Of a DNA stretch of 64,000 nucleotides, positions 15,983-59,690 are shown piece by piece (the stretch's first letter is position 1; every line of letters starts with the position of its first letter). This DNA is from Tetracentron sinense (Eukaryota > Streptophyta > Magnoliopsida > Trochodendrales > Trochodendraceae), in the NCBI GenBank assembly GCA_015143295.1, contig CM026570.1, positions 2,566,047-2,630,046 of the forward strand, in the 5' to 3' direction. The notes under the pieces are model-generated. The model saw nothing but the letters and a program-made list of their open reading frames with translations, had not been told where the DNA came from and did no database searches. The translations under genes and the position numbers were made by a program.

Positions 15983-15986
15983 TTCT

Positions 15987-18662: not shown

Positions 18663-18687
18663 CTTCTCTCAAAAATTGTTACAGAAG

Positions 18688-18705: not shown

Positions 18706-18709
18706 AAAA

Positions 18710-36679: not shown

Positions 36680-37178
36680 GTTGGCACAGTCTCACAATTC
36701 AAATTTTTTCCCAAAGTTTCACTACGCTAGCAACACGTGATTAGGATAAGGTTTGAGGCATTCCTTAGTCTCAACCAAAAACAAATGTTTATTAGCTAAG
36801 AATAAGTCTATGGGTGAGGGAGAGAGAAATGAGGACTTAGTCACACTTGCATTGCATGGTTCTCCACAAGACTATCTATAATATTTGGTATATCTCTTAC
36901 GCTTGCGCTTCCTCTTCATTGCCAGTACGTTCACATTTTGCAGGCACCAAATAAAATAGAAATTTAAAAAGTAAACAGAAAAGACGAAAAGAGATAAAAT
37001 AAAATAAAAAGATTATGAGTTTATTTACTTCATGCATTGAGGGTGATCATAGAGATAAGAACTGTTCAAAATTAGACAGCTTCAAGTTGCTAGTAATTGT
37101 TTACAGCTACACACGTTTTCATTTACAAAGTAAAACCCACCACCACCAGTCTTTGTATTTCTCTCTATGTTTCTTCAT

Positions 37179-37187
37179 CTATAAATA
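37179..37187 (+). promoter_or_regulatory. TATA box of peroxidase A
   Basis: CTATAAATA about 130 bp before the start codon, conserved in the same context (TTCATCTATAAATACTCTAC) at B and C. Confidence 0.65.
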
Positions 37188-37315
37188 CTCTACTAGGATC
37201 CTTTGCTTCAACACACCCATCTCCTGATCCAGCTCTCTTTGTCAATCTCTCTCAATAACTATTTCAATAGAAGACTGGTTAATTCCCTTGATCTATCTCT
37301 TGCTCTTATACCAAT

Positions 37316-38456
37316 ATGTCGAGCTTTTGGGGTTGTAAGATTCAAATGCCGACCCTGCTCTCTTGCTTGATTTTATTTTTCACTATATCCACAATGGCGT
37401 CGGTGTCATCGGCATCTCTAAAAGTGGGCTTCTATCGATCAAACTGCCCTTCTGTGGAGACGATTGTGCGAAAAGCTGTAAACAAGGTGGTGTCTCGCAA
37501 TCCTGGCATAGCTGCTGGACTCATTCGGATGCATTTTCATGACTGTTTTGTTAGGGTACACACTTTAAACTTGGTCACTCAAAGCTTTTGGGTTTGTCTA
37601 AAGATTAGAGTTAAGAACTATTGTTACTGTGGTGGTGGTGCACTGGTACTAATCATGTTTCTGTTGTATTCTTTATCAGGGTTGCGATGCTTCAATCCTA
37701 CTCGATTCAACACCAGGAAAAGAATCAGAGAAAGAACATCCTGCTAACAACCCAAGCTTGCGAGGCTTCGAGGTAATTGATGAGGCAAAGGCCCAAATTG
37801 AAGCTCTATGCCCCAAGACTGTCTCATGCTCAGACATCCTTGCATTTGCCGCTCGTGATAGTGCCTTCATGGCCGGAGGAATCAACTATGCTGTCCCGGC
37901 AGGGCGTCGTGATGGACGGGTATCTCTCAAAGATGAACCAACTCAAAACCTCCCACCTCCTTCATTTGATGCCAAGCAACTCAAGGACAACTTTGCGCGT
38001 AAAGGGTTGTCTCTAGACGAAATGGTGACACTCTCTGGGGCACACTCAATTGGAGTTTCACACTGTTCTTCCTTCTCAAATCGTCTCTATTCCTTTAATG
38101 CCACTCACCCACAAGATCCTTCTATGGATCCCAATTATGTAACCTTCTTGAAAACCAAGTGTCCTCGATCATCAAGCAATGGAGATGGCCGAGACCCGAC
38201 GGTGCCACTCGATGTTCTAACACCCAATAGGTTGGACAACAAATACTATATGGGTTTGAAGAACCATCGTGGCCTATTGACATCGGACCAGACTCTCCTG
38301 AGCAGCCCCTCGACCGCATGGATGGTGAGGAATAATGCAAAACATTCTTCTGCTTGGACCAACAAGTTTGCAGCGGCAATGGTGCACATGGGTTCCATTG
38401 ATGTTCTTACAGGCACCAAGGGTGAGATCAGGAAGAACTGTAGGATTGTGAATTAG
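37316..38456 (+). CDS. Class III peroxidase, copy A (two exons)
   Basis: Secreted haem peroxidase using H2O2 to oxidise phenolic substrates in the cell wall. Exon 1 is 37316-37555, the intron 37556-37679 (GTACAC to TATCAG, phase 0) and exon 2 37680-38456, giving 338 residues, normal for the family. Residues 1-33 are a signal peptide; the mature part begins near [12 protein letters not shown]. Distal site RMHFHDCF: Arg71, His75, Asp76. Proximal haem site LSGAHSIG with His202. Eight family cysteines are present (44, 77, 82, 124, 130, 209, one in KTKCP, one in KNCRIVN). The intron falls in the classic FVR/GCDAS position; the other introns common in the family are absent. Exon 1 differs from copy B at about 22 of 240 sites, but exon 2 at only 3 of 777. 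It resembles peroxidase 5-like proteins; substrate not predictable. Confidence 0.93.
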
Positions 38457-38652
38457 GCTTTCCTAGCTTTACCACTACTGCGAACTCGGAATTGTTTGTA
38501 TTCTTGCTTTCTTTTGTTATGTTTTTGTTTTCCTTCTTCTTTATTGTCCTAATTCAAGTTGGATAATTTATAAATTGAATGTTCAAGCAGTCAATGAGAA
38601 GTGTGATAAAATATTGATGATTTTCTTATTGAAAGAATCATTGAGAACAAGG
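38457..38652 (+). other. 3' flank of peroxidase A
   Basis: T-rich untranslated sequence, similar to the 3' flanks of B and C for about 190 bp and then interrupted by a MITE. A near-consensus poly(A) signal is not obvious. Confidence 0.5.
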
Positions 38653-39044
38653 CTCAGGATTCTCTCGAGTTCAAACCGGGGAGACTCTCTCCGGTTTGAA
38701 CCCCTAGAGGTCGCCACGTGTCTCCTTTGACACCCCTTAACCATGGGTAAGGTTCACCCACCCCTAGGGTTCACCCATCCATCCTTGTTTTTTTTTTTTA
38801 AAAATATTAATTCTTTTTTTTAAAATTAAAAGCTGTTTTAATTATTTAAAAAACTCTAAAAACAGTTTTTTTAATTTAAAAAATAATAATTAATATATAT
38901 AAAAAAAACCAAGGATGGGTGGGTGAACCCTAGGGGTGGGTGAACCTCACCCATGGTTAAGGGGTGTCAAAGGAGACACGTGGCGACCTCTAGGGGTTCA
39001 AACCGGAGAGAGTCTCCCCGGTTTGAACTCGAGAGACTCCTGAG
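38653..39044. mobile_element. Foldback MITE in the 3' flank of peroxidase A
   Basis: Almost perfect palindrome: CTCAGGATTCTCTCGAGTTC pairs with GAACTCGAGAGACTCCTGAG, and CCTAGAGGTCGCCACGTGTC with GACACGTGGCGACCTCTAGG. The corresponding sites downstream of B (47470) and C (59600) lack it, so copies B and C show the empty site. Contains the G-box-like CCACGTGT in both arms. Confidence 0.82.
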
Positions 39045-39549
39045 CCTATGCCATTTGATTCTTGCAAAATGTATTCCTAATATCGAAAAACCATAGCCGT
39101 GGGAGTCGAAATTGCAACTGCTCCATCTCCACTTCTTAATTTTAGTTCGGTTCGGTTTCAAATTGGAACAAACCAGAACCGAATCGCATAAATTCGGTTT
39201 AAGCAAAACCATACCCAGAACCGAACTGAGCTTGTAAAATATCGAACCAAACCCGGACCATGGTGGTCAGTTCGGTCCGGTTCACGATTTGACCCGTACC
39301 CATGTGCACCCCTACTTGCAAGCAATCATCTACATTACACTGAGTGAGTTTATATAGAAAATGGTAGACACTGATAACGTAATAGAAACCCAGCCCAATC
39401 TAAACATAATATCAACAGATTCCTAAATAATAGGTACTAATCTATGAATATATGAGATATCGTGTATCTCATAGAAATTAAATTATTATTAAAGTTCCCG
39501 TAACCCTCTTCCTTCATTAGGAATGCTAGCTCCACTCTCAATCAACTCA
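39045..39549. other. Spacer with GGTTCGG-rich element
   Basis: About 39140-39320 is rich in GGTTCGGTTT and inverted AACCGAAC words and ends in CACCCCTAC, which resembles hAT subterminal DNA; ends not defined. No gene. Confidence 0.35.
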
Positions 39550-39844
39550 TACTCTCATCCTCTACCAACCACGTGTCTATTTTTTTGTGAAAAAGTGCTT
39601 TAATCAATGAAAAATGGATAGGTGATTGGTGGAGAGTGAGAATAGAGGTTGACGGAGAGTAGCGCTAACACTTCTCTTTCCTTCATACAAAATTTTATTA
39701 GGAGAATACAGTGATTAGAGTATTGTAATAAGGTAAGTGAAATACACTACATCATTCTATTTCATCACAGTATTATATTAGCATCAATAACGGATAGAAT
39801 CATTCAGTGTACACGTATTGACGCTCACCGGGGCTTCGGATCTG

Positions 39845-39985
39845 ACTAGAAAATGGTTTATTGGCGTTAAGCATGAAATTTTCAAAATGCAACTTTCATT
39901 TCCTTAAACCTCAGTTTAGACAGTTCTATATTTGAAATTGAAATATGGAGAGCTTGAGATTAATGACTGCAATTTGACCGTGTTT
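39845..39985 (+). pseudogene. Relic resembling the last ACLA intron
   Basis: CTAGAAAATGGTTTATTGGC through GGAGAGCTTGAGATTAATGA resembles 31532-31660, the 3' part of the intron between the two ACLA-like exons (roughly three quarters identical). The following coding exon is not present here; a MITE begins at 39998. The same relic is at 51995-52140. It may instead be an unrecognised repeat present at both places. Confidence 0.5.
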
Positions 39986-39997
39986 GACAAATGAGAC

Positions 39998-40330
39998 CAA
40001 ATCCTCTAAGGTGATAACCAGATTTGCAAATCCGGTTATCATCCCTGATGTCGCCACATGTCCCTTTTGACACCTCTTAACTGTGGTTAAGATTCACCCA
40101 CCCCAAGGGTTCAACCACCCATCCTTGGTTTTTTTTTAAAAAAAATTAATTTTTTCATAAATATTTTAATATTAAATTTTTTTTAAGAAAAAACCAAGGA
40201 TAGGTGGGTGAATCCTAGGGTAGAGATGAGTGAATCTTAACCACAGTTAAGGGGTGTTAACAAGGACACGTGGGGACTCAGTGGCATAACTAGATTCCCC
40301 ATAATCCGGTTATAACCGTAGAGGATTTGA
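39998..40330. mobile_element. Foldback MITE
   Basis: CAAATCCTCTAAGGTGATAA pairs with the inverted TTATAACCGTAGAGGATTTG, and CTTAACTGTGGTTAAGATTC with GAATCTTAACCACAGTTAAG. Present in both copies of the segmental duplication (52152-52464), so older than it. Confidence 0.8.
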
Positions 40331-40369
40331 TTCCTTATGGGGGCTGTTTCTTTACATGTCTGTGTTCCT

Positions 40370-40690
40370 TCCTTCCACTCGCCATGTGTCCCTTTTAACC
40401 CCTTTTAACCTTGGTTAAGGTTTATTAATTCAGGAGTTAATTTTTTTAAAAACCAAGAGTAGATGTATGAACTTAGGAGTGAGTGAATTCTTAACCACAA
40501 TTAATGGGTATTAAAAGGGACACGTGTCCCTTTTAACCTATTTAAGATTTATTAAGTTAGGAGTTAATTTTTTGTTTCTTTCTAATTAGTTAGTGTAGAT
40601 GTATGGACCCTAGGAGGTGAGTGAATCTTAATTAACTATAGTTAATAGGTGTTAAAAGTGACAAGTGGTGAGAAAGGGTGGCACATGCAT
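40370..40690. mobile_element. Foldback MITE, compound
   Basis: Three related arms with GTGTCCCTTTTAACC or its inverse and TTAGGAGTTAATTTTTT lie in one stretch, which looks like one element partly duplicated or inserted into a relative. Repeated at about 52500-52820. Confidence 0.55.
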
Positions 40691-41742
40691 TCCGTTGGGC
40701 AGAATGGCGGGAAAGAATCCATCTCCATATCTACTACTTATATTATAAGATTTTCTCTCTTTGGTCTCCAAACTCCCATCCCTCCAATCCTATAATTTCT
40801 ATTTTATATATGACATGTTACTTTTCTCTTTAACCCCCACTATTCAAGTTTGGGACCTACTATCTCATCCTAGAGCCCTCTCTATCTCTACTATTGTAGA
40901 GTTATCCCTTATCTCCAAGATTCGAACTCTTGCAGATAGGTTGGGACCCACTATCTCATCCTAGAGCCCTCTCTATCTCCATTACTGTAGAGTCCTCTCT
41001 TATCTCCAACCCTTGGGTGTATTAATTTAAATTTAATACTAAGAAATTTATTATTTTTCATTAGATGTTATTAAAATAATAATTTTATTATTTATAAAAT
41101 CAATTAATTAATACAAATAATTATGTCTATCAAATGAAAAAGCTTATATTATTAAAAATAAAATTTATAAATATTCTTAAAATATATCACTTAATATTTA
41201 AATGAGTAATTCCATATCAGAACCCCTCTTATCCTTAAATGACATGCAGGTGTATGCTATAAAACTATTTCCTTTGGTAGACCCGACTTTTAAAATTTTG
41301 GACAAATCAGGACCTAACTTGACGTTAACTTTAGTCTGTCTATATTTTCACATGAAATACCGAGAATACCCCCACTCAAGTGATATCTCATAGAATGATT
41401 TTTACCTTTTTAAAGGTGCAAGAATGTGCATTAGCTACAATCCCTATTGTAGACACATGCAGGAAGTATATTCTCATTTAACAATGCCAAAAATAACCCC
41501 ACATGAGTGGTTTTTTCTGGAATAACTATATTACTCTTCTTAAAGGTGCAAGAGTGTTTAAAATTGAGCAATAGTTCACTCCACTGGCGAGGATAGATGG
41601 GTGAACCTTAGGGGTGAGTGAATCTTAACCACAATTAAATGGAGTTAAGAGGAGGATGCCATTAGAAGGGACCTGAGATGCATCTCCTCCCATCACCGAC
41701 AAAGGATGTGATATTTTCCTTTAAAATTTTCATGTTATTAAC

Positions 41743-41925
41743 TTGGTGAGGGTAGTAGGCTCAACTACTACCCTAATTTGTGATAGGCATTGTAAAAGTA
41801 GAAGAAAATTGCATATACATTTTCTTGGCGATGGTAGTAGGCTCCAAGATGTGACTCAACCCGTTCTAGAATATCTCAACAGCCCCTATGGCACGGTCAT
41901 GGCTCTCATGGAAATGAGAAATTAA
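41743..41925 (+). other. Short open frame inside the MULE, unknown
   Basis: Reads 60 residues including FLGDGSRLQDVTQPVLEYL and is identical in the second copy (53879-54061). No domain recognised. It could be a captured host fragment or chance. Confidence 0.25.
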
Positions 41926-42969
41926 AATCTGATTCCACTATTTCTTGAGCTTAGTTCCTAACTTTAATCTTTAACCTCTCTCCTTCATAATATATATTTT
42001 TTTAATTAACATGAAAGGATTCACTCCTCCATATAAAAGATCATACAGTTAGAAGGTTTTGCTCCTTAGCTAAGATATGAAAGAAAGTGATTAAACGAAC
42101 TCAAACTCTTGGGTTGTTCATAATTTAATAAAAACCATCACAATAAAACTACCAAGATGAAATAAGGAAAAAAATTGATAACTTCAAAATAGATTACCAT
42201 ACTTTTTTAATGGGAAGTCCAAACTGCAATAAAATCCTCTACCTATGTCAAAGACTCAGCAAACTAAGATCAAGTAGTAATCCAATAGATCGAACCTTCA
42301 AAATGGATCTTGTTGTTTCTTGTGTTCTCTTACTCTTCTCATCCCTACCCAATTTTGAGATGGGGTGACAAAACATGTACAGGTTATGTTATGCAACATC
42401 GACAATTTTATTTCATGGAGAACAACAAAATGATATACCCTGCAAAATTCAATTACACCATCATTTTAGATTGATGTCAATTCACATTGAAAATGACTGA
42501 TACACCATGCAAAAATCTTCAGCCATAAGAAATGCTAGGCCATCCAAATTGTTCATCCAAAATCTTAATTAATCCGGAGTCATATCACCCATACAAATAA
42601 CATGAAGCCTCATGTCATTAAAACTACAAAAATATTACAGAAAAGAACATTAGTAGTTATCTCTGAGTTTTCCTTAATTTAACTTGAAATTGAACAAAAT
42701 ATTCTTCAACTTCACTTCTTGTGCAAAATGGCGGTATGTCGCTCCACTATATCCACATCTTCAATTTTGTCGTCATCAATAATCCTGCATGGTCGTATAT
42801 ATAAGCATAACAACATCGATATGCAAGAAGCATACTAATTAATCATAAAAGTTCTTTTTGCATATGTCAACATCCATACAACTATTAGTAATATTCATTA
42901 CAAAAACTCCACTTACCGACCCATTTGCATATATGAAAAGGCATACCTGAATGTACTAAGAGACTCATA

Positions 42970-44120
42970 TCAAATTTTACTCATTGAACTAGATGATCCT
43001 CCATGCAAAGTAGAAGATCCTTGATTGTTGATAGATTTTTTGCATGTTCTAGAATTGTGGCTTAACTCATTACATCGTTTGCATCTCGTAGTTCCCTTTT
43101 GACTTTGTTGTAGTTCATCAGCGTCACGTCTCCTATTCTTTTTTGGCTTACCAGGCCTACAACATTGATGTGGTGGGCCAATACTGTATTCCAATTCTGG
43201 AACATTCCATTGTTTCTTATCTGGCATTGGATGCACTAAATTAGCGTATTGTTCCCTGTATATAGGGAGATAGAAACAATCTGTACAAATATCTTCAATA
43301 CGATGCCTTGTATGAAGGATAACAGAAACGTGACGACATGGTAACCCCGATAACTGCCACCTATGACAAGAACAAGTGCGCAATGAGAGATGAAGTGAGG
43401 ATCTTCGTAATCCTATGTCAACCTCATATTCATCCATACTAGAATAACGAATAATGAAATTCTCTACCTTTTTTTAAAAAAAATCTCAGTAAGCTTCTTC
43501 TATATCATGCTCCCCACAATATTCCCATTTTCAAGTTTTTTTTTGCATTCTCTCTTCATTCACAAAACTGAGTCATCAACTAAGCCCGAATAAAGTCAAC
43601 TAAATCGATAACAGACATGAATTTGACCTTTGATATCCAATTATTAAATGACTCAGTAAATTATTGTTTAAAAAATCACATTTACATCTTTCATCGAAAT
43701 GCGACCTACTCCATTCTGTAAGATTTTTATTCATCATCCATTGATATGTTGATGGACTCATTACTTTTATCTTTGCTAAGACAACATTGAACTCTAACAT
43801 AGTGTAAGTGGTTGTTGCCTTTCAAAATAGATTTTTTAAAAATCAAACTGACATTATCTTTCTTAAAGTTCTTGTATATGTGACGTACACATAATCGATG
43901 ATCTACCATAGGAAACACTAGATGAGACCTTCTGTCTATCTAAAATAAAAGTCATGTGTCTCTCATTGCCGATTACCATAAGTAGATTCTCCAAAAACCA
44001 TGCCCAACTCACTTCTTTTTCAATTTCGACAAGAAAAAAAACTAATGAAAATAATCCATTATCGGCATCTAAAGCTACTGCTGCAAGCAATACTCCCTTT
44101 ATTTCTCCTTTAAATGACAT
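42970..44120 (-). pseudogene. MuDR-type transposase remnants
   Basis: Read on the - strand from right to left: a MULE catalytic-domain segment GVLLAAVALDADNGLFSLVF and EVSWAWFLENL (44120-43863); a segment HRLCVRHIYKNFKKDN (43918-43727); a later conserved part with MSPSTYQWMM (43800-43600); and the C-terminal SWIM zinc finger CSCHRWQLSGLPCRHVSVIL with a trailing knuckle CKRCNELSHNSRTC (43437-42970). The pieces are in different frames separated by stops, so this is a dead transposase of a plain DNA transposon. Order and spacing match the Mutator transposase. Confidence 0.85.
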
Positions 44121-44525
44121 CCATCTATGTCAATCACAGACTTATATCTTTGAAAGCCTCAAATTGATGCACGAAAGGAGATAAATAAATGATGAAATGC
44201 ATGATCATACATCACTTTATACCTAATTTGAAGGGAAAAAAATTAGTAACATTACACACTTGAAAACAAATATCGAGGATGAAGCTTAGGGTGACATTCT
44301 TTGTAGCAATTTCGCTTCGCTTTTTTTAACGGGTGACATTCTTTATAAAAAGTGACATTCTTCGATTCCCCAACCAACATTGCTTTTTTTTTTTTTAAAA
44401 AAAATATGGGTTTAGATTCGTGTCCTGAATCTTAGGGATTTCTCTACCCCATTTGGGGATGAAGTTTAGGGTTTACTTTCATCACCCCAATCAATTAAAA
44501 AAAAAAACTTTTTTAGAAATACCTT

Positions 44526-44759
44526 TTGGTTAGCTGCAATCTGGTGAGTTGCAAAGTTTCTTCAATGGAGGAATCTGTTGCCTCCTTTGGACTTGATTCT
44601 CTTGGAGAGGACTTGATATTGCCTAAACTTCTGAGTGACTTTGTAGCAATGAAGAACTTGTGTAAGCAAAGGGTTAGAGACTTAAAGTGCAAAACAAGAA
44701 AGGAGCTTATTATGGGGGGTATTTTTGGTATTGCAATCAATAATATATATGTTCGTTAG
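44526..44759 (+). other. Short open frame near the MULE right end
   Basis: 77 residues with SVASFGLDSLGEDLILPKLL. The second copy (56663-56896) differs by one residue (Asn to Ser). It lies just inside the right inverted repeat. No domain recognised; possibly a transduplicated host exon. Confidence 0.3.
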
Positions 44760-45147
44760 CTAAAATTAACGTTGGGTCTTAATTCGTCCAATATTTTAAA
44801 AGTCGGGTCTGCCAAAGGAAATAGTTTTAAAGCAGGCACCTACATGTCATTTAAGGATAAAAGGGGTTCCGATATGGAATTACCCCATATTTAAATAAAT
44901 AATATTATTTAATTCTAGATGTTCTTAAATTTTTACCTTTCGCATGGTGTCTTTGCTAGTTTATATATATTTAATAATAAGCTAGTTTGGTATTTTTACC
45001 AGGGTCTGGGAGGCCAACTCAAATGCAACCAATTACACACATGGAACCAAATCGCCCAGTTCACAGGTCCAAATCTCAACCCAAACCCCATGTAGGGTGA
45101 GTTCGATGGGTTCAGAAAGTCGCCACCCTTGTATTTGATTAGTATTA

Positions 45148-45314
45148 GTCTTTGGGTACTCCCAAATCCTAACCCTTTATCTCAATTATTAAATTGTTAG
45201 GATTATAGTTGATGAGGCATTAGAAAAGATAAAATAAGTCAACTCTAATGCTGACCCTTAATGATTAGTTATAAACGGTTAGGGTTAGGGAGTATATTTG
45301 GGAGTACCATAGAC
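45148..45314. mobile_element. Small MITE upstream of peroxidase B
   Basis: GTCTTTGGGTACTCCCAAAT pairs with TTTGGGAGTACCATAGAC. About 167 bp. Same insertion as upstream of A and C, so it predates the copies. Confidence 0.7.
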
Positions 45315-45500
45315 GATGGCCCAGTTTGACAATTCAATTTTTTTTCAAAAGTCTCACGATTGAATCATTGATGCTAGCAACACTGATTGATTGAGATAAG
45401 GTTTTAGGCATTCCTGAGTTGAGACAAATGTTTATTAGCTGAGAATAAGTCTATGGGTGAGGGAGCGAGAAATGAGGACTTGGTCACACTTGCATTGCAG

Positions 45501-45783
45501 GGTTCTCCTCAAGACTTTAATCTTTGATATATCCCTTACTCTTCCTCTACATTGCCAGTACGTTGACATTTTGCTAGGCACTAAATAAAATAGAAATTTA
45601 AAATGTAAACAGAAAAAAATCAAAAGAGATTAAAAAAAAAATGGTTCTCCTCAAGACTATAATCTTTGATATATCTCTTACTCTTCCTCTACATTGCCAG
45701 TACGTTGACATTTTGCTAGGCACTAAATAAAACTTAAATTTAAAAAGTAAACAGAAAAAATCAAAATAGATTAAAAAAAAAAA
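45501..45783 (+). repeat. 142-bp tandem duplication in the peroxidase B promoter region
   Basis: GGTTCTCCTCAAGACT starts at 45501 and again at 45643. Both units run through TTGCCAGTACGTTGACATTT to AAATAAAAC/TAG and a purine-rich tail. Copy A has one unit only (about 36860-37010); C has two (57639-57922). Confidence 0.85.
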
Positions 45784-45955
45784 GATTATATGAGTTTCTT
45801 TACTTCAAGCATGGAAGGTGATCAAGAGATAGAACTGTTCAAAGTTAGACAGCTTCAAGTTGCTGGTTATTGCTTACAGGCTTACAGCTACACACGCTTT
45901 CATTTACAAAGTAAAACCCACCATCACCAGTCTTTGTATTTCTCTCTTTCTTCAT

Positions 45956-45964
45956 CTATAAATA
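45956..45964 (+). promoter_or_regulatory. TATA box of peroxidase B
   Basis: CTATAAATA, about 160 bp before the start codon. The leader that follows has a CCATCT hexamer run (about five units) and a CT run absent from copy A. Confidence 0.65.
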
Positions 45965-46123
45965 CTCTACTAGGATCCTTTACTTCAACCCACCCATCTC
46001 CATCTCCATCTCCATCTCCATCTCCAGCTCTCTCTCTCTCTCTCAATAACAAAGCAGGCTGCCAAGCTATTACCTTCAATAGAAGATTGGTTTCCTTGAT
46101 CTATCTCTTTTTCTTATAATACC

Positions 46124-47274
46124 ATGTCGAATTTTTTGGGTTGCAATATTCAAATGCCGACCTTGCACTTTTGCTTGATTTTATTTTTGACTATATCCAC
46201 TATTGCATCGGTGTCATCGGCATCTCTAAAAGTAGGATTCTATCGTTCAAATTGTCCTTCTGCGGAGACGATTGTGAGAAAAGCTGTAAACAAGGCGGTG
46301 TCTAGCAATCCTGGCATAGCTGCTGGACTTATTCGGATGCATTTTCATGACTGTTTTGTTAGGGTACACACTTTAAACTTGGTCTCTGATCAATGGTTAC
46401 TTTTTATTTTCTCTAAATATTGAGATAAGGACTAATATTGCTTGTTACTGTGGTGGTGGCACTAATATAATCATGTTCTGTTGTTTTATTTTTTCAGGGT
46501 TGTGATGCTTCAATCCTACTCGATTCAACACCAGGAAAAGAATCAGAGAAAGAACATCCTGCTAACAACCCAAGCTTGCGAGGCTTCGAGGTAATTGATG
46601 AGGCAAAGGCCCAAATTGAAGCTCTATGCCCCAAGACTGTCTCATGCTCAGACATCCTTGCATTTGCCGCTCGTGATAGTGCCTTCATGGCCGGAGGAAT
46701 CAACTATGCTGTCCCGGCAGGGCGTCGTGATGGACGGGTATCTCTCAAAGATGAACCAACTCAAAACCTCCCACCTCCTTCATTTGATGCCAAGCAACTC
46801 AAGGACAACTTTGCGCGTAAAGGGTTGTCTCTAGACGAAATGGTGACACTCTCTGGGGCACACTCAATTGGAGTTTCACACTGTTCTTCCTTCTCAAATC
46901 GTCTCTATTCCTTTAATGCCACTCACCCACAAGATCCTTCTATGGATCCCAATTATGTAACCTTCTTGAAAACCAAGTGTCCTCCACCATCAAGCAATGG
47001 AGATGGCCGAGACCCGACGGTGCCACTCGATGTTCTAACACCCAATAGGTTGGACAACAAATACTATATGGGTTTGAAGAACCATCGTGGCCTATTGACA
47101 TCGGACCAGACTCTCCTGAGCAGCCCCTCGACCGCATGGATGGTGAGGAATAATGCAAAACATTCTTCTGCTTGGACCAACAAGTTTGCAGCGGCAATGG
47201 TGCACATGGGTTCCATTGATGTTCTTACAGGCACCAAGGGTGAGATCAGGAAGAACTGTAGGATTGTGAATTAG
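46124..47274 (+). CDS. Class III peroxidase, copy B (two exons)
   Basis: Exon 1 is 46124-46363, the intron 46364-46497 (GTACAC to TTTCAG) and exon 2 46498-47274: 338 residues with the same signal peptide plan, distal RMHFHDCF and proximal LSGAHSIG sites and full cysteine set as copy A, so it should be an active secreted peroxidase. Mosaic history: exon 1 and everything upstream for about 6.8 kb is nearly identical to copy C (one difference in exon 1), while exon 2 is nearly identical to copy A (3 of 777 differences, against about 15 to copy C). The only residue changes from A in exon 2 are in the Arg-Ser after KTKCP, which is Pro-Pro here. Confidence 0.93.
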
Positions 47275-47920
47275 GCTTTCCTAGCTTTACCACTACTGCA
47301 AACTCGGAATTGTTTGTATTCTTGCATTCTTTTGTTATGTTTTTGTTTTCCTTCTTCTTTATTGTCCTAATTCAAGCGTAAATTGATTTGGATAATTTAT
47401 AAATTGAATGTTCAAGCTGTCAATGAAAAGTGTGATTAAATGCAGATTTTCTTATTGAAAGAACCATTCAGAACAATATACCATGTGATTAATCTTCAAA
47501 CATGTAATTAGACCATAGCCATCGGGGCGTAATTGCATCTGCTCCATCTCCTAAGACTATCATTGTGTAGTCCACCAGGAAACAGCGTGTAACTATACTC
47601 ATTGACAAAGCCAAGGCTATCGCAAACATTCAAGACTAACCTCACCCTTTGAGCCTTGTGGCTCACCTGCCCTTAAAAATACTCGAATCCAACAAGCCTT
47701 AATTACTTGAGCTCCTGCAAGGCTGCAATGTTAGCCAGTGTGACCGAGTACATGATCACAAAGTTGGATCCATCTATTGTTTAAGTGTTACACACCTTAC
47801 AGTGATCTTTACCACCTCTTGACATTTCCATCATCAACTAAAACTGATGACTGATGGGCACTAAGAAGCAGCTTCATTCCGCTTACAAGCTGGGCATTTC
47901 TAGATACTGAGTTACATTAC
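47275..47920. other. 3' flank of peroxidase B and spacer
   Basis: Untranslated and intergenic sequence shared with the flank of C to about 47690 (marker AGTCCACCAGGAAACAGCG at 47571, and 59870 in C). The flanks differ by roughly 10 %, far more than the upstream regions. Nothing else recognised. Confidence 0.5.
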
Positions 47921-48141: not shown

Positions 48142-48299
48142 GTTACAACTTCACAAAATACTCCTAAGTTCTTTTTAGGAATGCTAGCCCTACTCTCAAT
48201 CAACCTATACTTTCACCCATAACCAAGCACCTGTTCACTTTTTGATGAAAATGTGCTTTAATCACTGCAAAGTGGACAAGTGATTGGTTGTGGGATACT

Positions 48300-48910: not shown

Positions 48911-48960
48911 TTATCATTTAACCAATGTTAAAAGTGATTTAAAAGGACATGCCTTAAGAG

Positions 48961-51707
48961 GAGGGGCGTCAACGTTATGCCCAGCGGAATGCGGAAGCAT
49001 AAAGAAGCATGAAATGCAACAGCCGGAGTAATTCCGCGGACCTCCAAGACTGTTAAGCCCCTGTCACTGAGGATAGTCATCCAACAGCCGTGAGCGTAAT
49101 AAGCCTGTCTAATGGGTATTGGGTTGTTACACTAGTATGCTATGCATGAAATGCACTGTACAAGAAACATCCCAAAAAGTATAAAGAATCAACACTTAAT
49201 TAAATACTTAGGTATTTTAATTAATTTTGAGATTATTTGACTTAAATTTAAGTTCCGGCTTGAACCTTATCCCCAGCAGAGTCGCCAGAGCTGTGAGCAT
49301 GGGATTTTCCAACCCACTTTCACAATTATGTGTTTTGACTTGAGTCGCCACCTATTCATTCTTAGGGATAGGTCCTGGGTATTTGTTTGTTTGGATAAGG
49401 CAAATGGTCTAATCAGAGTTAGGGTAAGTGGTTCGATTAAGCCCTGAGGAAGGTGTTAGGCACCCCAAGACCCCCGTCTTATAACGGTTACCTACTCCCT
49501 AAACTTAAGCCAATTATAATCTCAAAGTTTAATTAAAATGTCCAAAGTTTTTAAGTGAGTGCTAATCCAAGAAAAATAGAAAGCTAGATGGCTAGGGTCG
49601 AACTCGAGTTGAATTGCCTACGTACTCATATGGTGAGATCAGACCGAGCGTAGTTCTGACACATGAACTCGTGCCGAGGCTAGGGGGGAGTGTGTGTGTG
49701 CATAGGATGGTCAAAGGGTCTAGCCTAGAAGGCTATGGTTTAGTTGACCGGGGAGGTTAAGTGCACAAGTGTTAAGTCTAACCGCGGTTAGAGGGTATTT
49801 ATCCATGGTTAGATGAGCTAACCAAAGCTAAGGAGGTCCTACAAGTCTGTTTTTGGTCTTTTTGTATTTTTTATATTTTTTGAGATTTTTGGGGATATTT
49901 GAATGTTTTTTATATTTTGGTTATATTTGAATGTTTTTGGTGTTTTGAGATTTTATCATGTTTTTGGTATTTTGAGATTTTATCATGTTTTTGAATTTTC
50001 ATATAGGTAAGGTTTTGACAAACTTAACTAAAGTCAAATTTAGTCCAAGAGTTTGGCTAAAAGATTATAGTTTAAGACATAAAGAGGGATGTGCCTTATG
50101 AATAGTAAATGGTCTATTCCCAACACCTATTTTGTTGGATTGATGTTGATAATAGATCAAATAACATTATCTTTAGTATGAAACATTTTTAAGAATGTCC
50201 TCTTTAAGTCCTTACACCATCATTTATCTTAAGTCCTTAAACTATCACCTACCCATTCAACATAGAACATGAAGGAAAAATAAAGAAATGAAAGAAAATG
50301 AAAACTCATCCTCTCCCTTTTAAGGTGATTCATTTACACCATTATTAATGATGTAATGTTGCTCTAAAGAATGTTAGGGAGGGGATGAACTTTCACAAAA
50401 AATTCTAGAAAGAGGACTAGAATCTCAAAAGAAAACAAAATGAAAAAGAGAGGTATAGCTTTAGCTTCCACTCTCTATGGGCCTACCCATATCCACACTT
50501 GTGGGTACATAAAAAGAAGAAAATATGTATATGGAAAGGAAAAGAAAAAAGGAGCATGTCCTTGCCTTTGATATGGGGTCCCTCTACACCATTAGATTGG
50601 TGTAGAGAGGCCCAACTATGCTTGAGAAATGAGAGATCAAGAAGAGAGAACCAAATAAAAAAAAGATAAAAAAGAAGAGAAAATGAAAGAATGAGTGCCT
50701 ACTCCTCCAAGAATTCTCCTTCAATGCTCCAAGGGGTAGGGTTTTAGAATCCACAAAGGAAGAGAGTTAGTGAAGAACTCTAAGCTTTTAGTCTTAGAAT
50801 TCTTTCCAAACTCTAAACCTTAGTTTCTTCTCCCTTCTTCAAACTCAAGAGAAACACAAGTGGGTGGGAACCTTCTAGGGATCTTGAGGGATGGATCTAA
50901 GGAGCTAAGAGATTGGTATTTATAGGAAAACTAAGAGGTTGAGTTGTGTCTTTTACATGGGGGATAAAAGGAGCTAGTGGGTAAAGACTTGAGTGTTGTA
51001 AGGTGAGTTGATAGATTAAGTGTTGTAAGGAGTGTAAGAGAGTGTAAGAGAGTTGGTGGGTTGAGTGAACTATGGGTTATATGGGTATGGGTTGTAGGAT
51101 ATAGGGTGTAAGAGAGGTGTAAGAGAGTTGGTGGGTTGAGTGAACTATGAGTTATATAGGTATGGGTTGATGTAAGAGAGGTGTAAGAGAGTTGGTGGGT
51201 TGAGTGAACTATAGGTTATATGGGTATGAGTTGTAGGATATAGGGTAGGTGGATATGGATATGTGGATTAGGTCTTATGGATCATGGGTTATTAGTAGAT
51301 GGGTCATGGGTTATGATTATTGGACTTTGACTATGACATTTGGGCTTGGGCTATGGAAATAGGCTTCGGCTTAGGCAATTGGGTGATTGGGTATTTGGGC
51401 TTGACTACTTGGGTTGGGTAATAAAATTAGGTAATTGGGTTTGATTGAGTTGTCTAGGTATAAGTTTGGTCAAATGGGCTTAGGCCTTGGGTATACCTAG
51501 GGCTTACTAAGGTTAGGCTAGGGCTACCTAGGGGTTTGGGTTTAGGACTACCTAGGGTTAAGCTTAGGGTTAACTAGGGTCTTAACTAGGGTTTAGTCCT
51601 ATGGTTAAGGGTTTACCTAGGGTTTGGAACTAGGGTTGATCTAGGGTTTGGACCATAGCTAAATTAATTAACCACGGTTAAGGGGGTGTAAAAATAGGGT
51701 GCTGACA
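48961..51707 (-). mobile_element. Long-LTR gypsy remnant: one LTR plus leader
   Basis: The LTR spans 49292-51707 (2416 bp); on the - strand it begins TGTCAGCACCC and ends TGCTCACA. Four bases further lies the primer site TGGCGACTCTGCTGGGGA (49270-49287), then about 300 bp of leader to about 48961. The coding region and other LTR are missing. It is homologous to the solo LTR at 22981-25885 and has the same primer site and spacing as the Tat element at 6323-20321. Its right end is directly followed by ACTCT, where the segmental duplication begins. Broken by large loss. Confidence 0.8.
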
Positions 51708-52151
51708 ACTCTCATCCTCTATCAACCACGTGTCTATTTTTTTGTGAAAAAGTGCTTTAATCAATGAAAAATGGATAGGTGATTGGAGGAGAGTGAGAAT
51801 AGAGGTTGACCGAGAGTACGCTAACACTCCTCTTTCCTTCATACAAAATTCTATTAGGAGAATAGAGTGATTAGAGTATTGTAATAAGGTAAGTGAAATA
51901 CACTACATCATTCTATTTCATCACAGTATTATATTAGCATCAATAACGGATAGAATCATTCAGTGTACACGTATTGACGCTCACCGGGGCTTCGGATCTG
52001 ACTAGAAAATGGTTTATTGGCGTTAAGCATGAAATTTTCAAAATGCAACTTTCATTTCCTAAATTTCAGTTTAGACAGTTCTATATTTGAAATTGAAATA
52101 TGGAGAGCTTGAGATTAATGATTGCAATTTGACCGTGTTTGACAAATGAGA

Positions 52152-52464
52152 CCAAATCCTCTAAGGTGATAACCAGATTTGCAAATCCGGTTATCATCCC
52201 TGATGTCGCCACATGTCCCTTTTGACACCTCTTAACTGTGGTTAAGATTCACCCATCCTTGGTTTTTAGAAAAAAAAAATTAATTTTTTCATAAATATTT
52301 TAATATTAAATTTTTTTTAAAAAAAAAACCAAGGATAGGTGGGTGAATCCTAGGGTAGAGATGAGTGAATCTTAACCACAGTTAAGGGGTGTTAACAAGG
52401 ACACGTGGGGACTCAGTGGCATAACTAGATTCCCCATAATCTGGTTATAACCGTAGAGGATTTG
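52152..52464. mobile_element. Foldback MITE (copy of 39998-40330)
   Basis: Same palindrome and same site in the second copy of the duplicated segment. About 20 bp shorter, having lost part of the left arm near the loop. Confidence 0.8.
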
Positions 52465-52499
52465 ATTCCTTATGGGGGCTGTTTCTTTACACGTCTGTG

Positions 52500-52820
52500 T
52501 TCCTTCCTTCCACTCGCCATGTGTCCCTTTTAACCCCTTTTAACCTTGGTTAAGGTTTATTAATTCAGGAGTTAATTTTTTTTAAAACCAAGAGTAGATG
52601 TATGAAATTAGGAGTGAGTGAATTCTTAACCACAATTAATGGGTATTAAAAGGGACACGTGTCCCTTTTAACCTATTTAAGATTTATTAAGTTAGGAGTT
52701 AATTTTTTGTTTCTTTCTAATTAGTAAGTGTAGATGTATGGACCCTAGGAGGTGAGTGAATCATAATTAACTATAGTTAATAGGTGTTAAAAGTGACAAG
52801 TGGTGAGAAAGGGAGGCACA
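52500..52820. mobile_element. Foldback MITE, compound (copy of 40370-40690)
   Basis: Same order of GTGTCCCTTTTAACC arms as in the left copy, with a few substitutions. Confidence 0.55.
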
Positions 52821-53339
52821 TGCATTCCGTTGGGCAGAATGGCGGGAAAGAATCCATCTCCATATCTACTACTTATATTATAAGACTTTCTCTCTTTGGT
52901 CTCCAAACTCCCGTCCCTCCAATCCTATAATTTCTATTTTATATATGACATGTTACTTTTCTCTTTAACCCCCACTATTCAAGTTTGGGACCTACTATCT
53001 CATCCTAGAGCCCTCTCTATCTCTACTATTGTAGAGTTATCCCTTATCTCCAAGATTCGAACTCTTGCAGATAGGTTGGGACCCACTATCTCATCCTAGA
53101 GCACTCTCTATCTCCATTACTATAGAGTCCTCTCTTATCTCCAACCCTTGGGTGTATTAATTTAAATTTAATACTAAGAAATTTATGATTTTTCATTAAA
53201 TGTTATTAAAATAATAATTTTATTATTTATAAAATCAATTAATTAATACAAATAATTATGTCTATCAAATAAAAAAGCTTATATTATTAAAAAATAAAAT
53301 TTATAAATATTCTTAAATTATGTCACTTAATATTTAAAT

Positions 53340-56300
53340 GAGTAATTCCATATCAGAACCCCTCTTATCCTTAAATGACATGCAGGTGTATGCTATAAAA
53401 CTATTTCCTTTGGTAGACCCGACTTTTAAAATATTGGACAAATCAGGACCTAACTTGACGTTAACTTTAGTCTGTCTATATTTTCACATGAAATACTGAG
53501 AATACCCCCACTCAAGTGATATCTCATAGAATGACTGTTACCTTTTTAAAGGTGCAAGAATGTGCATTAGCTACAATCCCTATTGTAGACACATGCAGGA
53601 AGTATATTCTCATTTAACAATGCCAAAAATAACCCCACATGAGTGGTTTTTTCTGGAATAACTATATTACTCTTCTTAAATGTGCAAGAGTGTTTAAAAT
53701 TGAGCAATAGTTCGCTCCACTGGCGAGGATAGATGGGTGAACCTTAGGGGTGAGTGAATCTTAACCACAATTAAATGGAGTTAAGAGGAGGATGCCATTA
53801 AAAGGGACCTGAGATGCATCTCCTCCCATCACCGACAAAGGATGTGATATTTTCCTTTAAAATTTTCATGTTATTAACTTGGTGAGGGTAGTAGGCTCAA
53901 CTACTACCCTAATTTGTGATAGGCATTGTAAAAGTAGAAGAAAATTGCATATACATTTTCTTGGCGATGGTAGTAGGCTCCAAGATGTGACTCAACCCGT
54001 TCTAGAATATCTCAACAGCCCCTATGGCACGGTCATGGCTCTCATGGAAATGAGAAATTAAAATCTGATTCCACTATTTCTTGAGCTTAGTTCCTAACTT
54101 TAATCTTTAACCTCTCTCCTTCATAATATATATTTTTTTAATTAACATGAAAGGATTCACTCCTCCATATAAAAGATCATACAGTTAGAAGGTTTTGCTC
54201 CTTAGCTAAGATATGAAAGAAAGTGATTAAACGAACTCAAACTCTGGGGTTGTTCATAATTTAATAAAAACCATCACAATAAAACTACCAAGATGAAATA
54301 AGGAAAAAAATTGATAACTTCAAAATAGATTACCATACTTTTTTAATGGGAAGTCCAAACTGCAATAAAATCCTCTACCTATGTCAAAGACTCAGCAAAC
54401 TAAGATCAAGTAGTAATCCAATAGATCGAACCTTCAAAATGGATCTTGTTGTTTCTTGTGTTCTCTTACTCTTCTCATCCCTACCCAATTTTGAGATGGG
54501 GTGACAAAACATGTACAGGTTATGTTATGCAACATCGACAATTTTATTTCATGGAGAACAACAAAATGATATACCCTGCAAAATTCAATTACACTATCAT
54601 TTTAGATTGATGTCAATTCACATTGAAAATGACTGATACACCATGCAAAAATCTTCAGCCATGAGAAATGCTAGGCCATCCAAATTGTTCATCCAAAATC
54701 TTAATTAATCCGGAGTCATATCACCCATACAAATAACATGAAGCCTCATGTCATTAAAACTACAAAAATATTACAGAAAAGAACATTAGTAGTTATCTTT
54801 GAGTTTTCCTTAATTTAACTTCAAATTGAACAAAATATTCTTCAACTTCACTTCTTGTGCAAAATGGCGGTATGTCGCTCCACTATATCCACATCTTTAA
54901 TTTTGTCGTCATCAATAATCCTGCATGGTCGTATATATAAGCATAACAACATCGATATGCAAGAAGCATACTAATTAATCATAAAAGTTCTTTTTGCATA
55001 TGTCAACATCCACACAACTATTAGTAATATTCATTACAAAAACTCCACTTACCGACCCATTTGCATATATGAAAAGGCATACCTGAATGTACTAAGAGAC
55101 TCATATCAAATTTTACTCATTGAACTAGATGATCCTCCATGCAAAGTAGAAGATCCTTGATTGTTGATAGATTTTTTGCATGTTCTAGAATTGTGGCTTA
55201 ACTCATTACATCGTTTGCATCTCGTAGTTCCCTTTTGACTTTGTTGTAGTTCATCAACGTCACGTCTCCTATTCTTTTTTGGCTTACCAGGCCTACAACA
55301 TTGATGTGGTGGGCCAATACTGTATTCCAATTCTGGAACATTCCATTGTTTCTTATCTGGCATTGGATGCACTAAATCAGCGTATTGTTCCCTGTATATA
55401 GGGAGATAGAAACAATCTGTACAAATATCTTCAATACGATGCCTTGTATGAAGGATAACAGAAACGTGACGACATGGTAACCCCGATAACTGCCACCTAT
55501 GACAAGAACAAGTGCGCAATGAGAGATGAAGTGAGGATCTTCGTAATCCTATGTCAACCTCGTATTCATCCATACTAGAATAACGAATAATGAAATTCTC
55601 TGCCTTTTTTAAAAAAAAATCTCAGTAAGCTTCTTCTATATCATGCTCCCCACAATATTCCCATTTTCAAGTTTTTTTTTGCATTCTCTCTTCATTCACA
55701 AAACTGAGTCATCAACTAAGCCCGAATAAAGTCAACTAAATCGATAACAGACATGAATCTGACCTTTGATATCCAATTATTAAATGACTCAGTAAATTAT
55801 TGTTTAAAAAATCACATTTACATCTTTCGTCGAAATGCGACCTACTCCATTCTGTAAGATTTTTATTCATCATCCATTGATATGTTGATGGACTCATTAC
55901 TTTTATCTTTGCTAAGACAACATTGAACTCTGACATAGTGTAAGTGGTTGTTGCCTTTCAAAATAGATTTTTTAAAAATCAAACTGACATTATCTTTCTT
56001 AAAGTTTTTGTATATGTGACGTACACATAATCGATGATCTACCATAGGAAACACTAGATGAGACCTTCTGTCTATCTAAAATAAAAGTCATGTGTCTCTC
56101 ATTGCTGATTACCATAAGTAGATTCTCCAAAAACCATGCCCAACTCACTTCTTTTTCAATTTCGACAAGAAAAAAAACTAATGAAAATAATCCATTATCG
56201 GCATCTAAAGCTACTGCTGCAAGCAATACTCCCTTTATTTCTCCTTTAAATGACATCCATCTATGTCAATCACAGACTTATATCTTTGAAAGCCTCAAAT

Positions 56301-57023
56301 TGATGCACGAAAGGAGATAAATAAATGATGAAATGCATGATCATACATCACTTTATACCTAATTTGAAGGGAAAAAAATTAGTAACATTACACACTTGAA
56401 AACAAATATCGAGGATGAAGCTTAGGGTGACATTCTTTGTAGCAATTTTGCTTCGCTTTTTTTAACGGGTGACATTCTTTATAACAAGTGACATTCTTCG
56501 ATTCCCCAACCAACATTGCTTTTTTATTTATTTATTTTAAATATGGGTTTAGATTCGTGTCCTGAATCTTAGGGATTTCTCTACCCCATTTGGGGATGAA
56601 GCTTAGGGTTTACTTTCATCACCCCAATCAATTAAAAAAAAAAACTTTTTTAGAAATACCTTTTGGTTAGCTGCAATCTGGTGAGTTGCAAAGTTTCTTC
56701 AATGGAGGAATCTGTTGCCTCCTTTGGACTTGATTCTCTTGGAGAGGACTTGATATTGCCTAAACTTCTGAGTGACTTTGTAGCAATGAAGAGCTTGTGT
56801 AAGCAAAGGGTTAGAGACTTAAAGTGCAAAACAAGAAAGGAGCTTATTATGGGGGGTATTTTTGGTATTGCAATCAATAATATATATGTTCGTTAGCTAA
56901 AATTAACGTTGGGTCTTAATTCGTCCAATATTTTAAAAGTCCGGTCTGCCAAAGGAAATAGTTTTAAAGCAAGCACCTACATGTCATTTAAGGATAAAAG
57001 GGGTTCCGATATGGAATTACCCC
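53340..57023 (-). mobile_element. Mutator-like element, right copy, degenerate
   Basis: Same element as 41204-44886, with 125-bp terminal repeats and target duplication ATATTTAAAT on the left (53330-53339) and ATAGTTAAAT on the right (57024-57033), one base changed. It was copied as part of the segment, not inserted anew: both copies share the same insertion point. Confidence 0.87.
55106..56256 (-). pseudogene. MuDR-type transposase remnants, second copy
   Basis: Same four segments as at 42970-44120: catalytic-domain pieces at 56256-55999 and 56054-55863, the MSPSTYQWMM piece at 55936-55736, and the SWIM zinc finger with CCHC knuckle at 55573-55106. The last differs at two residues (Ala to Val and Asn to Asp). 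Dead for the same reason: stops and frame changes between segments. Confidence 0.85.
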
Positions 57024-57286
57024 ATAGTTAAATAAATAATATTATTTAATTCTAGATGTTCTTAAATTTTTACCTTTCTCGCATGGTGTCTTTGCTAGTT
57101 TATATATATTTAATAATAAGCTAGTTTGGTATTTTTACCACGGTCTGGGAGGCCAACTCAAATGCAACCAATTACACACATGGAACCAAATCGCCCAATT
57201 CACAGGTCCAAATCTCAACCCAAACCCCATGTAGGGTGAGTTCGATGGGTTCAGAAAGTCGCCACCCCTGTATTTGATTAGTATTA

Positions 57287-57453
57287 GTCTTTGGGTACTC
57301 CCAAATCCTAACCCTTTATCTCAATTATTAAATTGTTAGGATTATAGTTGATGAGGCATTAGAAAAGATAAAATAAGTCAACTCTAATGCTGACCCTTAA
57401 TGATTAGTTATAAACGGTTAGGGTTAGGGAGTATATTTGGGAGTACCATAGAC
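57287..57453. mobile_element. Small MITE upstream of peroxidase C
   Basis: Same insertion as 45148-45314 and 36322-36679, without the nested element found in A. Confidence 0.7.
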
Positions 57454-57638
57454 GATGGCCAGTTTGACAATTCAATTTTTTTTCAAAAGTCTCACGATTG
57501 AATCATTGATGCTAGCAACACTGATTGATTGAGATAAGGTTTTAGGCATTCCTGAGTTGAGACAAATGTTTATTAGCTGAGAATAAGTCTATGGGTGAGG
57601 GAGCGAGAAATGAGGACTTGGTCACACTTGCATTGCAG

Positions 57639-57922
57639 GGTTCTCCTCAAGACTTTAATCTTTGATATATCCCTTACTCTTCCTCTACATTGCCAGTACG
57701 TTGACATTTTGCTAGGCACTAAATAAAATAGAAATTTAAAATGTAAACAGAAAAAAATCAAAAGAGATTAAAAAAAAAATGGTTCTCCTCAAGACTATAA
57801 TCTTTGATATATCTCTTACTCTTCCTCTACATTGCCAGTACGTTGACATTTTGCTAGGCACTAAATAAAACTTAAATTTAAAAAGTAAACAGAAAAAATC
57901 AAAATAGATTAAAAAAAAAAGG
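57639..57922 (+). repeat. 142-bp tandem duplication in the peroxidase C promoter region
   Basis: Units start at 57639 and 57781, same as upstream of copy B. Confidence 0.85.
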
Positions 57923-58093
57923 ATTATATGAGTTTCTTTACTTCAAGCATGGAAGGTGATCAAGAGATAGAACTGTTCAAAGTTAGACAGATTCAAGTTG
58001 CTGGTTATTGCTTACAGGCTTACAGCTACACACGCTTTCATTTACAAAGTAAAACCCACCATCACCAGTCTTTGTATTTCTCTCTTTCTTCAT

Positions 58094-58102
58094 CTATAAA
58101 TA
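58094..58102 (+). promoter_or_regulatory. TATA box of peroxidase C
   Basis: CTATAAATA, about 155 bp before the start codon. The CCATCT run in the leader is shorter than in copy B. Confidence 0.65.
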
Positions 58103-58255
58103 CTCTACTAGGATCCTTTACTTCAACCCACCCATCTCCATCTCCATCTCCATCTCCAGCTCTCTCTCTCTCTCTCAATAACAAAGCAGGCTGCCAAGCT
58201 ATTACCTTCAATAGAAGATTGGTTTCCTTGATCTATCTCTTTTTCTTATAATACC

Positions 58256-59403
58256 ATGTCGAATTTTTTGGGTTGCAATATTCAAATGCCGACCTTGCAC
58301 TTTTGCTTGATTTTATTTTTGACTATATCCACTATTGCGTCGGTGTCATCGGCATCTCTAAAAGTAGGATTCTATCGTTCAAATTGTCCTTCTGCGGAGA
58401 CGATTGTGAGAAAAGCTGTAAACAAGGCGGTGTCTAGCAATCCTGGCATAGCTGCTGGACTTATTCGGATGCATTTTCATGACTGTTTTGTTAGGGTACA
58501 CACTTTAAACTTGGTCTCTGATCAATGGTTAATTTTCGTTTTCTCTAAATAAGATAAGGACTAATATTGCTTGTTACTGTGGTGGTGGCACTAATATAAT
58601 CATGTTTCTGTTGTATTCTTTTCCAGGGTTGCGATGCTTCAATCCTACTCGATTCAACACCAGGACTAGAATCAGAAAAAGAACATCCTGCTAACAAGCC
58701 AAGCTTGCGAGGCTTCGAGGTAATTGATGAGGCAAAGGCCCAAATTGAAGCTCTATGCCCCAAGACTGTCTCATGCTCAGACATCCTTGCATTTGCCGCT
58801 CGTGATAGTGCCTTCATGGCCGGAGGAATCAACTATGCTGTCCCGGCAGGGCGTCGTGATGGACGGGTATCTCTCAAAGATGAACCAACTCAAAACCTCC
58901 CACCTCCTTCATTTGATGCCAAGCAACTCAAGGACAACTTTGCGCGTAAAGGGTTGTCTCTAGACGAAATGATGACACTCTCTGGGGCACACTCAATTGG
59001 AGTTTCACACTGTTCTTCCTTCTCAAATCGTCTCTATTCCTTTAATGCCACTCACCCACAAGATCCTTCTATGGATCCCAATTATGTAACCTTCTTGAAA
59101 ACCAAGTGTCCTCGATCATCAAGCAATGGAGATGGCCGAGATCCGACGGTGCCACTCGATGTTCTAACACCCAATAGGTTGGACAACAAATACTATATGG
59201 GTTTGAAGAACCATCGTGGCCTATTGACATCGGATCAGACACTCCTTAGCAGCCCCTCGACCGCATGGATGGTGAGGAATAATGCAAAACATTCTTCTGC
59301 TTGGACCAACAAGTTTGCAGCGGCAATGGTGCACATGGGTTCCATTGATGTTCTTACAGGCATCAAGGGAGAGATCAGGAAGAGCTGTAGGATTGTGAAT
59401 TAG
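58256..59403 (+). CDS. Class III peroxidase, copy C (two exons)
   Basis: Exon 1 is 58256-58495, the intron 58496-58626 (GTACAC to TTCCAG) and exon 2 58627-59403: 338 residues. Signal peptide, distal RMHFHDCF, proximal LSGAHSIG and the eight cysteines are intact. Exon 1 is almost identical to copy B. Exon 2 is the most different of the three (about 12 differences from A, 15 from B); it reads [17 protein letters not shown] where the others have [25 protein letters not shown] for DEMVTLSG, and ends with [12 protein letters not shown]. Same tandem array and strand as A and B, so probably similar expression through a shared upstream block. Confidence 0.93.
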
Positions 59404-59690
59404 GCTTTCCTAGATTGACCACTACTGCAAACTCGGAATTGTTTGTATTCTTGCATTCTTTTGTTATATTTTTGTTTTCCTTCTTTATTGTCCTAATTCA
59501 AGTGTAAATTGATTTGGAATATTAATAAATTGAAAGTTCAAACAGTCCCTATACAAGTGTGATTAATTGCAGATTTTGCTTTTTGAAAGAAAGAACCATT
59601 CATAACAATATACCATTTGATTCTTGGAACATGCATGCAATTAGACCATAGCCATCGTGGCGGATTTGCATCTGCTCCATCTCCTATGAT
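59404..59690 (+). other. 3' flank of peroxidase C
   Basis: T-rich flank homologous to that of B but about 10 % different. It retains the empty site of the MITE that interrupts the flank of A. Confidence 0.5.

Follow-up and report, generated by a model that had tools for sequence, protein, structure and literature searches.

Introduction

Conversion between tandem paralogues is already well known. In C. elegans, interlocus conversion between the tandem paralogues col-12 and col-13 has left a near-identical coding tract between diverged flanks, and a review warns, in the passages available, that incomplete duplication can mimic such a conversion pattern (PMC3966223). In the three-locus RPP8 family of Arabidopsis, paralogues both in tandem and at a distance have undergone intergenic exchange (PMC6771003), and among the mammalian BEX/WEX/GASP genes chimaeric genes arose by conversion of the 5' part (PMC1274310), as far as the excerpts of these two papers go. 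Here, we describe a clean example, three class III peroxidase genes of Tetracentron sinense that we call A, B and C. They lie in tandem in a stretch of 64,000 nucleotides (assembly GCA_015143295.1, contig CM026570.1, positions 2,566,047 to 2,630,046 of the forward strand), hereafter the window, whose numbering is used throughout.

Among the open-licence matches listed, no title refers to this array or to conversion in class III peroxidases. The terms 'class III peroxidase' and 'concerted evolution' both occur in two genome-wide duplication papers (PMC6383267, PMC5816897). The three genes are mosaics, with approximate breakpoints in the intron and the 3' untranslated region (UTR) and with a truncated miniature inverted-repeat transposable element (MITE) at the edge of a long block common to B and C. 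We consider it quite probable that the native tree is ((B,C),A) and that B has since acted as the donor in two non-reciprocal transfers, both of them recent.

Divergence differs between the two exons

Genes A, B and C are intact, lie on the plus strand and encode 338 residues each, with a single GT-AG intron. Exon 1 of 240 bp is found at 37316-37555 in A, where it codes for the N-terminus with the distal Arg and His and is probably native sequence, at 46124-46363 in B and at 58256-58495 in C. Exon 2 of 777 bp, including the stop codon, is located at 37680-38456 in A, 46498-47274 in B and 58627-59403 in C. In exon 1, A differs from B at 22/240 sites and from C at 21/240, and C is of the B type, with 1/240 differences from B. 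The numbers for exon 2 are 3/777 (A-B), 12/777 (A-C) and 15/777 (B-C). These exact counts agree with those made by eye in an earlier, sequence-only reading of the window, which had given 22 and 1 of 240 sites as approximate values for A-B and B-C in exon 1, and 3, about 12 and about 15 of 777 in exon 2.

Sites private to A are distributed very unevenly, with 21/240 in exon 1 and none in exon 2 (0/777; Fisher P 3e-14), where three sites are private to B and 12 to C. Elsewhere, A-private sites represent 108 of the 886 ungapped columns upstream, 19/121 in the intron, where the alignment is uncertain, and 8/188 and 13/77 in the first and second parts of the 3' flank. The A-B and B-C contrasts in sequence thus exceed chance.

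Most of the enzyme is encoded by exon 2, and a constrained exon 2 next to an exon 1 that is free to change might therefore have been proposed to account for this pattern. The contrast is nevertheless just as strong at synonymous sites: between A and B, synonymous divergence (Ks) drops from 0.241 in exon 1 to 0.005 in exon 2 (12/58 vs 1/186; Fisher P 1.3e-7), which excludes protein-level selection as its cause, and B and C are near identical in the supposedly free exon 1. These synonymous counts refute selection on exon 2, to which we give practically no credence, and the sequence-only reading was correct that selection alone is insufficient. Ks also drops between A and C, from 0.218 to 0.033 (Fisher P 2.3e-4), and the B-C values are 0.018 for exon 1 and 0.039 for exon 2 (Fisher P 0.68). 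Biased conversion in exon 2 was considered as well and discarded, as GC content at third codon positions is not consistently higher in exon 2 (0.44-0.46) than in exon 1 (0.39-0.49).

Breakpoints lie in the intron and the 3' UTR

Likelihood segmentation of the 2289 ungapped columns of the three-gene alignment yielded four pieces. In the 5' piece A is the outgroup, with 12.3 % divergence between A and B and 0.65 % between B and C. The second piece consists of 17 columns at the end of the intron in which A equals C, and it is mostly an effect of the alignment. In the third piece (37677-38563), the A-B divergence is 0.57 %, compared with 1.9 % for A-C and 2.0 % for B-C. The 3' piece is diverged for every pair (17-24 %; A-B 18.0 %). 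The B-C break falls at about 46400, in the intron, and the left A-B break at about 37677-37686. The right A-B break is in the 3' UTR, at 38563 by segmentation and at 38598 by eye.

In GENECONV-like permutations (20,000 shuffles, hence a floor of P 5e-5), the longest run of every pair reached the floor when all sites were used, that of A-C mostly through the way the sequences were aligned. Restricted to coding sites, the test gave P 0.0023 for A-B, 0.0071 for B-C and 0.29 for A-C. Where the intron ends, the apparent A=C tract was rejected, since most of its supporting sites disappear in a gap-tolerant alignment. Divergence along the alignment is thus not uniform. The proposal that promoter, exon 1, exon 2 and 3' flank each have their own history holds for exon 1, exon 2 and the 3' flank. 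It does not hold for the promoter, which has one common history with exon 1.

A long block common to B and C ends inside a MITE

The block that B has in common with C occupies 39551-46399 on the plus strand and contains intergenic DNA with MULE transposase remnants, the promoter, exon 1 and the first 36 bp of the intron. Its counterpart upstream of C, at 51708-58531 on the same strand, has its left edge inside a MITE. Up to the intron break, B and C differ at 72/6819 positions (1.06 %), and over 39551-45031, whose rate serves below as the block rate, at 67/5458 (1.23 %). The figure of about 0.7 % in the sequence-only reading was thus too low. In the gene-proximal part of the block (45032-46399), differences are fewer than elsewhere (5/1361 vs 67/5458; Fisher P 0.004). 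A separate, recent B-C conversion of the promoter was nevertheless rejected, with P 0.16 in a scan of all windows of equal length.

Divergence between B and C rises past the break. The whole intron shows six mismatches in 130 compared bases plus five gap columns in a gap-tolerant alignment, and its remaining part 6/94 (P 0.0014 against the block rate). Higher counts (13/132 and 13/95, P 6e-10) were inflated by the alignment, and the gap-tolerant P value is used instead. The 3' flanks differ at 19/199 positions up to the point of A's insertion (P 7e-11 against the block) and at 14/81 beyond. These values bear out the several percent estimated by eye for the introns and the 10 % or so for the 3' flanks, and with them the proposal that the upstream block and exon 1 were recently copied between B and C. 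The rest of the C intron, exon 2 and the 3' flank (58532-59690, plus strand) are probably older, native C sequence.

As two haplotypes could also show a divergence of about 1 %, haplotype copies or collapsed repeats set in tandem by the assembler would be another way to generate the block. An assembly artefact is unlikely, however, given the divergence of the B and C 3' flanks and the 3 B-private and 12 C-private sites of exon 2. Moreover, the downstream DNA matches in short pieces only, the window contains no N, and the block starts at a precise cut within a MITE. An origin in the organism is thus the more plausible one.

This edge also suggests a direction for the transfer. A complete inverted-repeat, MITE-like element is present between A and B (about 39518-39677, or 39509-39686 with its repeats), bordered by the 9-bp direct repeats TTCCTTCAT at 39509-39517 and 39678-39686. 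The copy of the element on the C side lacks its left end and the 9-bp repeat to the left, keeping only the right one, at 51834. The 9-mer TTCCTTCAT occurs five times in the window, both strands taken together. No match was found between the B and C sides in the DNA immediately left of the block edge. The right junction of the block is thus homologous, in the common intron, and the left junction is non-homologous, inside the MITE. Since a truncated MITE would hardly yield a complete one with a matching repeat, this arrangement points to B as the probable donor and C as the recipient.

Two other features of the block were recorded. Among the B-side reading frames scanned, those on the minus strand at 42970-43473 and 43863-44129 harbour SWIM zinc finger and MULE transposase domains, and the C-side copies of these frames are at 55106-55621 and 55999-56265. 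A direct duplication of 140 bp (94 % identical) is found upstream of B (45501-45782) and of C (57639-57920), and the corresponding sequence is single in A.

The exon 2 tract common to A and B

The tract of near identity between A and B spans approximately 37686-38598 on the plus strand, starting at base 7 of exon 2 and ending some 142 bp beyond the stop codon, with one 11-bp gap in A. In the 3' UTR, A and B differ at 4/142 sites up to 38598 and at 27/126 beyond (P 1.4e-6). The tract is internal, its 0.57 % divergence standing between homologous flanks with 12.3 % on the 5' side and 18.0 % on the 3' side. Because diverged homologous DNA lies on both sides and because the contrast holds at synonymous sites, we interpret the tract as the probable result of interlocus gene conversion, by which exon 2 of A would have become B-like. 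That exon 2 was converted between A and B, separately from the B-C event, had been suggested by the sequence-only reading, and the Ks contrast, the permutation runs and the segmentation all agree with it. The 3' flank of A alone contains a foldback (inverted-repeat) element with approximate bounds 38651-39047, to which no strand is assigned. After it, weak homology of A to the 3' flanks of B and C resumes, up to about 39132. An inverted repeat at 59990-60381, 94.7 % self-complementary, is related to this foldback element.

Could B instead be a hybrid, with its 5' part from C and its 3' part from A, made by unequal crossing-over between A and C without any gene conversion? Such an event predicts C-like and A-like parts of equal age, and the ages are indeed similar: A and B differ at 5/328 synonymous and UTR positions of the tract, against 67/5458 for B and C in the block (P 0.60). 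B is also formally the recombinant in a 3SEQ-like test. However, past the tract B should then differ from A by about 1 %, and the observed values are 6/49 and 21/77 (27/126 in total). Compared with the block rate, downstream A-B divergence is significantly higher (10/190, P 1.4e-4; 21/77, P 1.5e-22). Past 39132, the A-B matches found to the left of the block are all repeat-like: one of 114 bp at 81 % identity, in which one MITE copy aligns with another, and one in inverted orientation at 69 %. The divergence of the remaining B intron from C (6/94, P 0.0014) and the start of the common block inside a MITE truncated on the C side are no better explained. Thus, simple unequal crossing-over is disfavoured, above all by the diverged A-B 3' flank, and we regard a hybrid B as very unlikely.

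The direction of the exon 2 transfer can be approached through the third gene. At synonymous sites of exon 2, A-C divergence (6/186) is similar to B-C divergence (7/186; P 1.0) and far below the A-C value for exon 1 (11/58). If B donated to A, both distances would reflect the native B-C distance, which explains the low A-C value. Donation from A to B would predict a B-C distance in exon 2 close to the deep A-C distance, which is not seen. Parsimony thus favours transfer from B to A, without amounting to proof.

Comparison with the peroxidases of known structure 4usc, which we take to be a palm enzyme, and 3hdl (royal palm) leaves the exon 2 donor unsettled. Among the seven variable sites of exon 2, positions 104, 196, 326 and 333 share the A/B residue with these palm-type enzymes, the C residue being derived, and positions 94, 243 and 244 are uninformative. 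In exon 1, only 3 of the 10 variable sites can be aligned, and A is derived at two of the three. The derived residues of C (N104K, V196M, T326I and N333S) may reflect relaxed constraint.

Proposed sequence of events

In the history that we favour, repair at C would have invaded B within the intron. About 6.85 kb would then have been copied leftward through exon 1, the promoter and the intergenic DNA, and the event would have been closed by non-homologous joining inside the MITE, with C's own 5' half being replaced. Such a transfer could have proceeded by one-sided invasion or by break-induced copying with end joining, which would fit because one junction is homologous and the other is not. In the second transfer, ordinary interlocus gene conversion would have overwritten exon 2 of A and some 140 bp of its 3' UTR with the B sequence, the tract ending in the diverged intron and 3' flank. 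Since their neutral divergences are similar, the two transfers may be about equal in age.

The A-B tract begins with the first bases of exon 2, without extending into the intron, and ends some 110-140 bp after the stop codon, so that it probably lies within the mature transcript. A transcript of B, spliced or partial, might therefore also have been the donor, through RNA- or cDNA-templated repair. For a DNA tract, the same limits are also explained by the divergence and the many indels of the intron and 3' flank, and we hold a transcript donor to be highly improbable.

Several observations weigh against two transfers from B. The recombination tests are simplified versions of our own (GENECONV-like and 3SEQ-like), not GENECONV or RDP, and the edges at 46400 and 38598 were chosen by eye, which makes the P values built on them post hoc. 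In the 3SEQ-like test, B is the recombinant by pattern (P 5e-5 in both orders). With C as the child, P is 5e-5 or 1.0 depending on the order, and with A it is 0.002 and 0.003. As the pattern alone makes B the recombinant, its role as the donor is argued from the MITE and from parsimony, and the MITE argument fails if C was the donor with a whole element whose left end was later lost. Both tracts are also longer than those reported for gene targeting in somatic leaf cells, which in the available part of that study are mostly below 100 bp and almost never above 300 bp, in contrast, as the study notes, with earlier work (PMC8467259).

The last of these points concerns exon 2 of C. Over all its sites, the B-C divergence of exon 2 (15/777) is no different from the block rate (P 0.13), although at synonymous sites it is (7/186, P 0.011). 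The synonymous value is also somewhat low compared with the adjacent non-coding DNA (25/293; P 0.059), and a run of 273 bp in exon 2 is devoid of B-C differences (P 0.022; the same run for A-C, P 0.071). An older conversion might thus also have homogenised exon 2 of C with that of A and B, for a total of at least three exchanges. This addition would be compatible with the history proposed here. Nevertheless, two events with B as the donor explain the rest, and the tests in question give borderline P values, with no correction for repeated testing. An older exchange is therefore possible, but we lean against it.

The encoded proteins and other features of the window

The A protein, the only one of the three scanned, matches the PF00141 peroxidase domain with an E value of 9.3e-86. 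The B and C proteins are of equal length and differ from it at 12/338 and 15/338 residues, respectively. Among 33 matches to solved structures, the nearest to A are 4usc (annotated as 'peroxidase') and 3hdl, with 176/302 identical residues each, and ascorbate peroxidases are far weaker matches (best E 3.6e-7). Class III peroxidases are recognized by eight cysteines and by distal Arg and His residues. The A protein has Cys at positions 44, 77, 82, 124, 130, 209, 241 and 334, with Arg71 and His75 as the distal residues. Judged by their sequences, A, B and C are class III (plant secretory) peroxidases. The N-terminus is hydrophobic in translation, and a signal peptide and peroxidase activity are predicted as traits of the class. 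No further peroxidase copies were found in the window by tblastn, as the 35 rows obtained comprise 18 from A, B and C themselves and 17 short matches with E >= 3.

Elsewhere in the window, the two copies of a 1.6-kb direct repeat, 10.8 kb apart and 99.4 % identical (6323-20321), are probably the long terminal repeats of a young retrotransposon.

Discussion

If the proposed history is true, one gene was the donor to both of its neighbours, C having received a promoter and an N-terminus and A most of its enzyme, and the direction of a long, non-reciprocal copy is recorded in what remains of a transposon. Gene trees built from whole peroxidase proteins of such arrays would be misleading, since the two exons group the genes differently, and Ks values computed over whole genes would misdate the duplication.

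One-sided invasion repair in plants, with one homologous junction and one that is not, was reportedly described by Puchta in 1998. That work dealt with experimental repair, whereas the pathway suggested for the peroxidases is deduced from a natural event. Among natural cases, col-12/col-13 resembles the A-B pair in being tandem paralogues with a near-identical coding tract and diverged flanks. In the passages available, however, the col-12/col-13 tract is reported to include the intron, at which the peroxidase tract stops, and the peroxidase trio differs by its second transfer, a 6.85-kb block with one non-homologous end. As to the caveat that incomplete duplication can mimic conversion (PMC3966223), the diverged flanks of the peroxidase genes are themselves homologous. 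The RPP8 family shares with the trio the exchange between paralogues in a plant. It consists of immune-receptor genes studied at the population level, and the available passages describe no oriented block copy. Finally, as far as the excerpts show, the BEX/WEX/GASP genes are similar in that their 5' and coding parts have separate histories. There, 5' UTR exons were homogenised, whereas in the peroxidases the promoter and exon 1 of C and exon 2 of A appear to have been overwritten.

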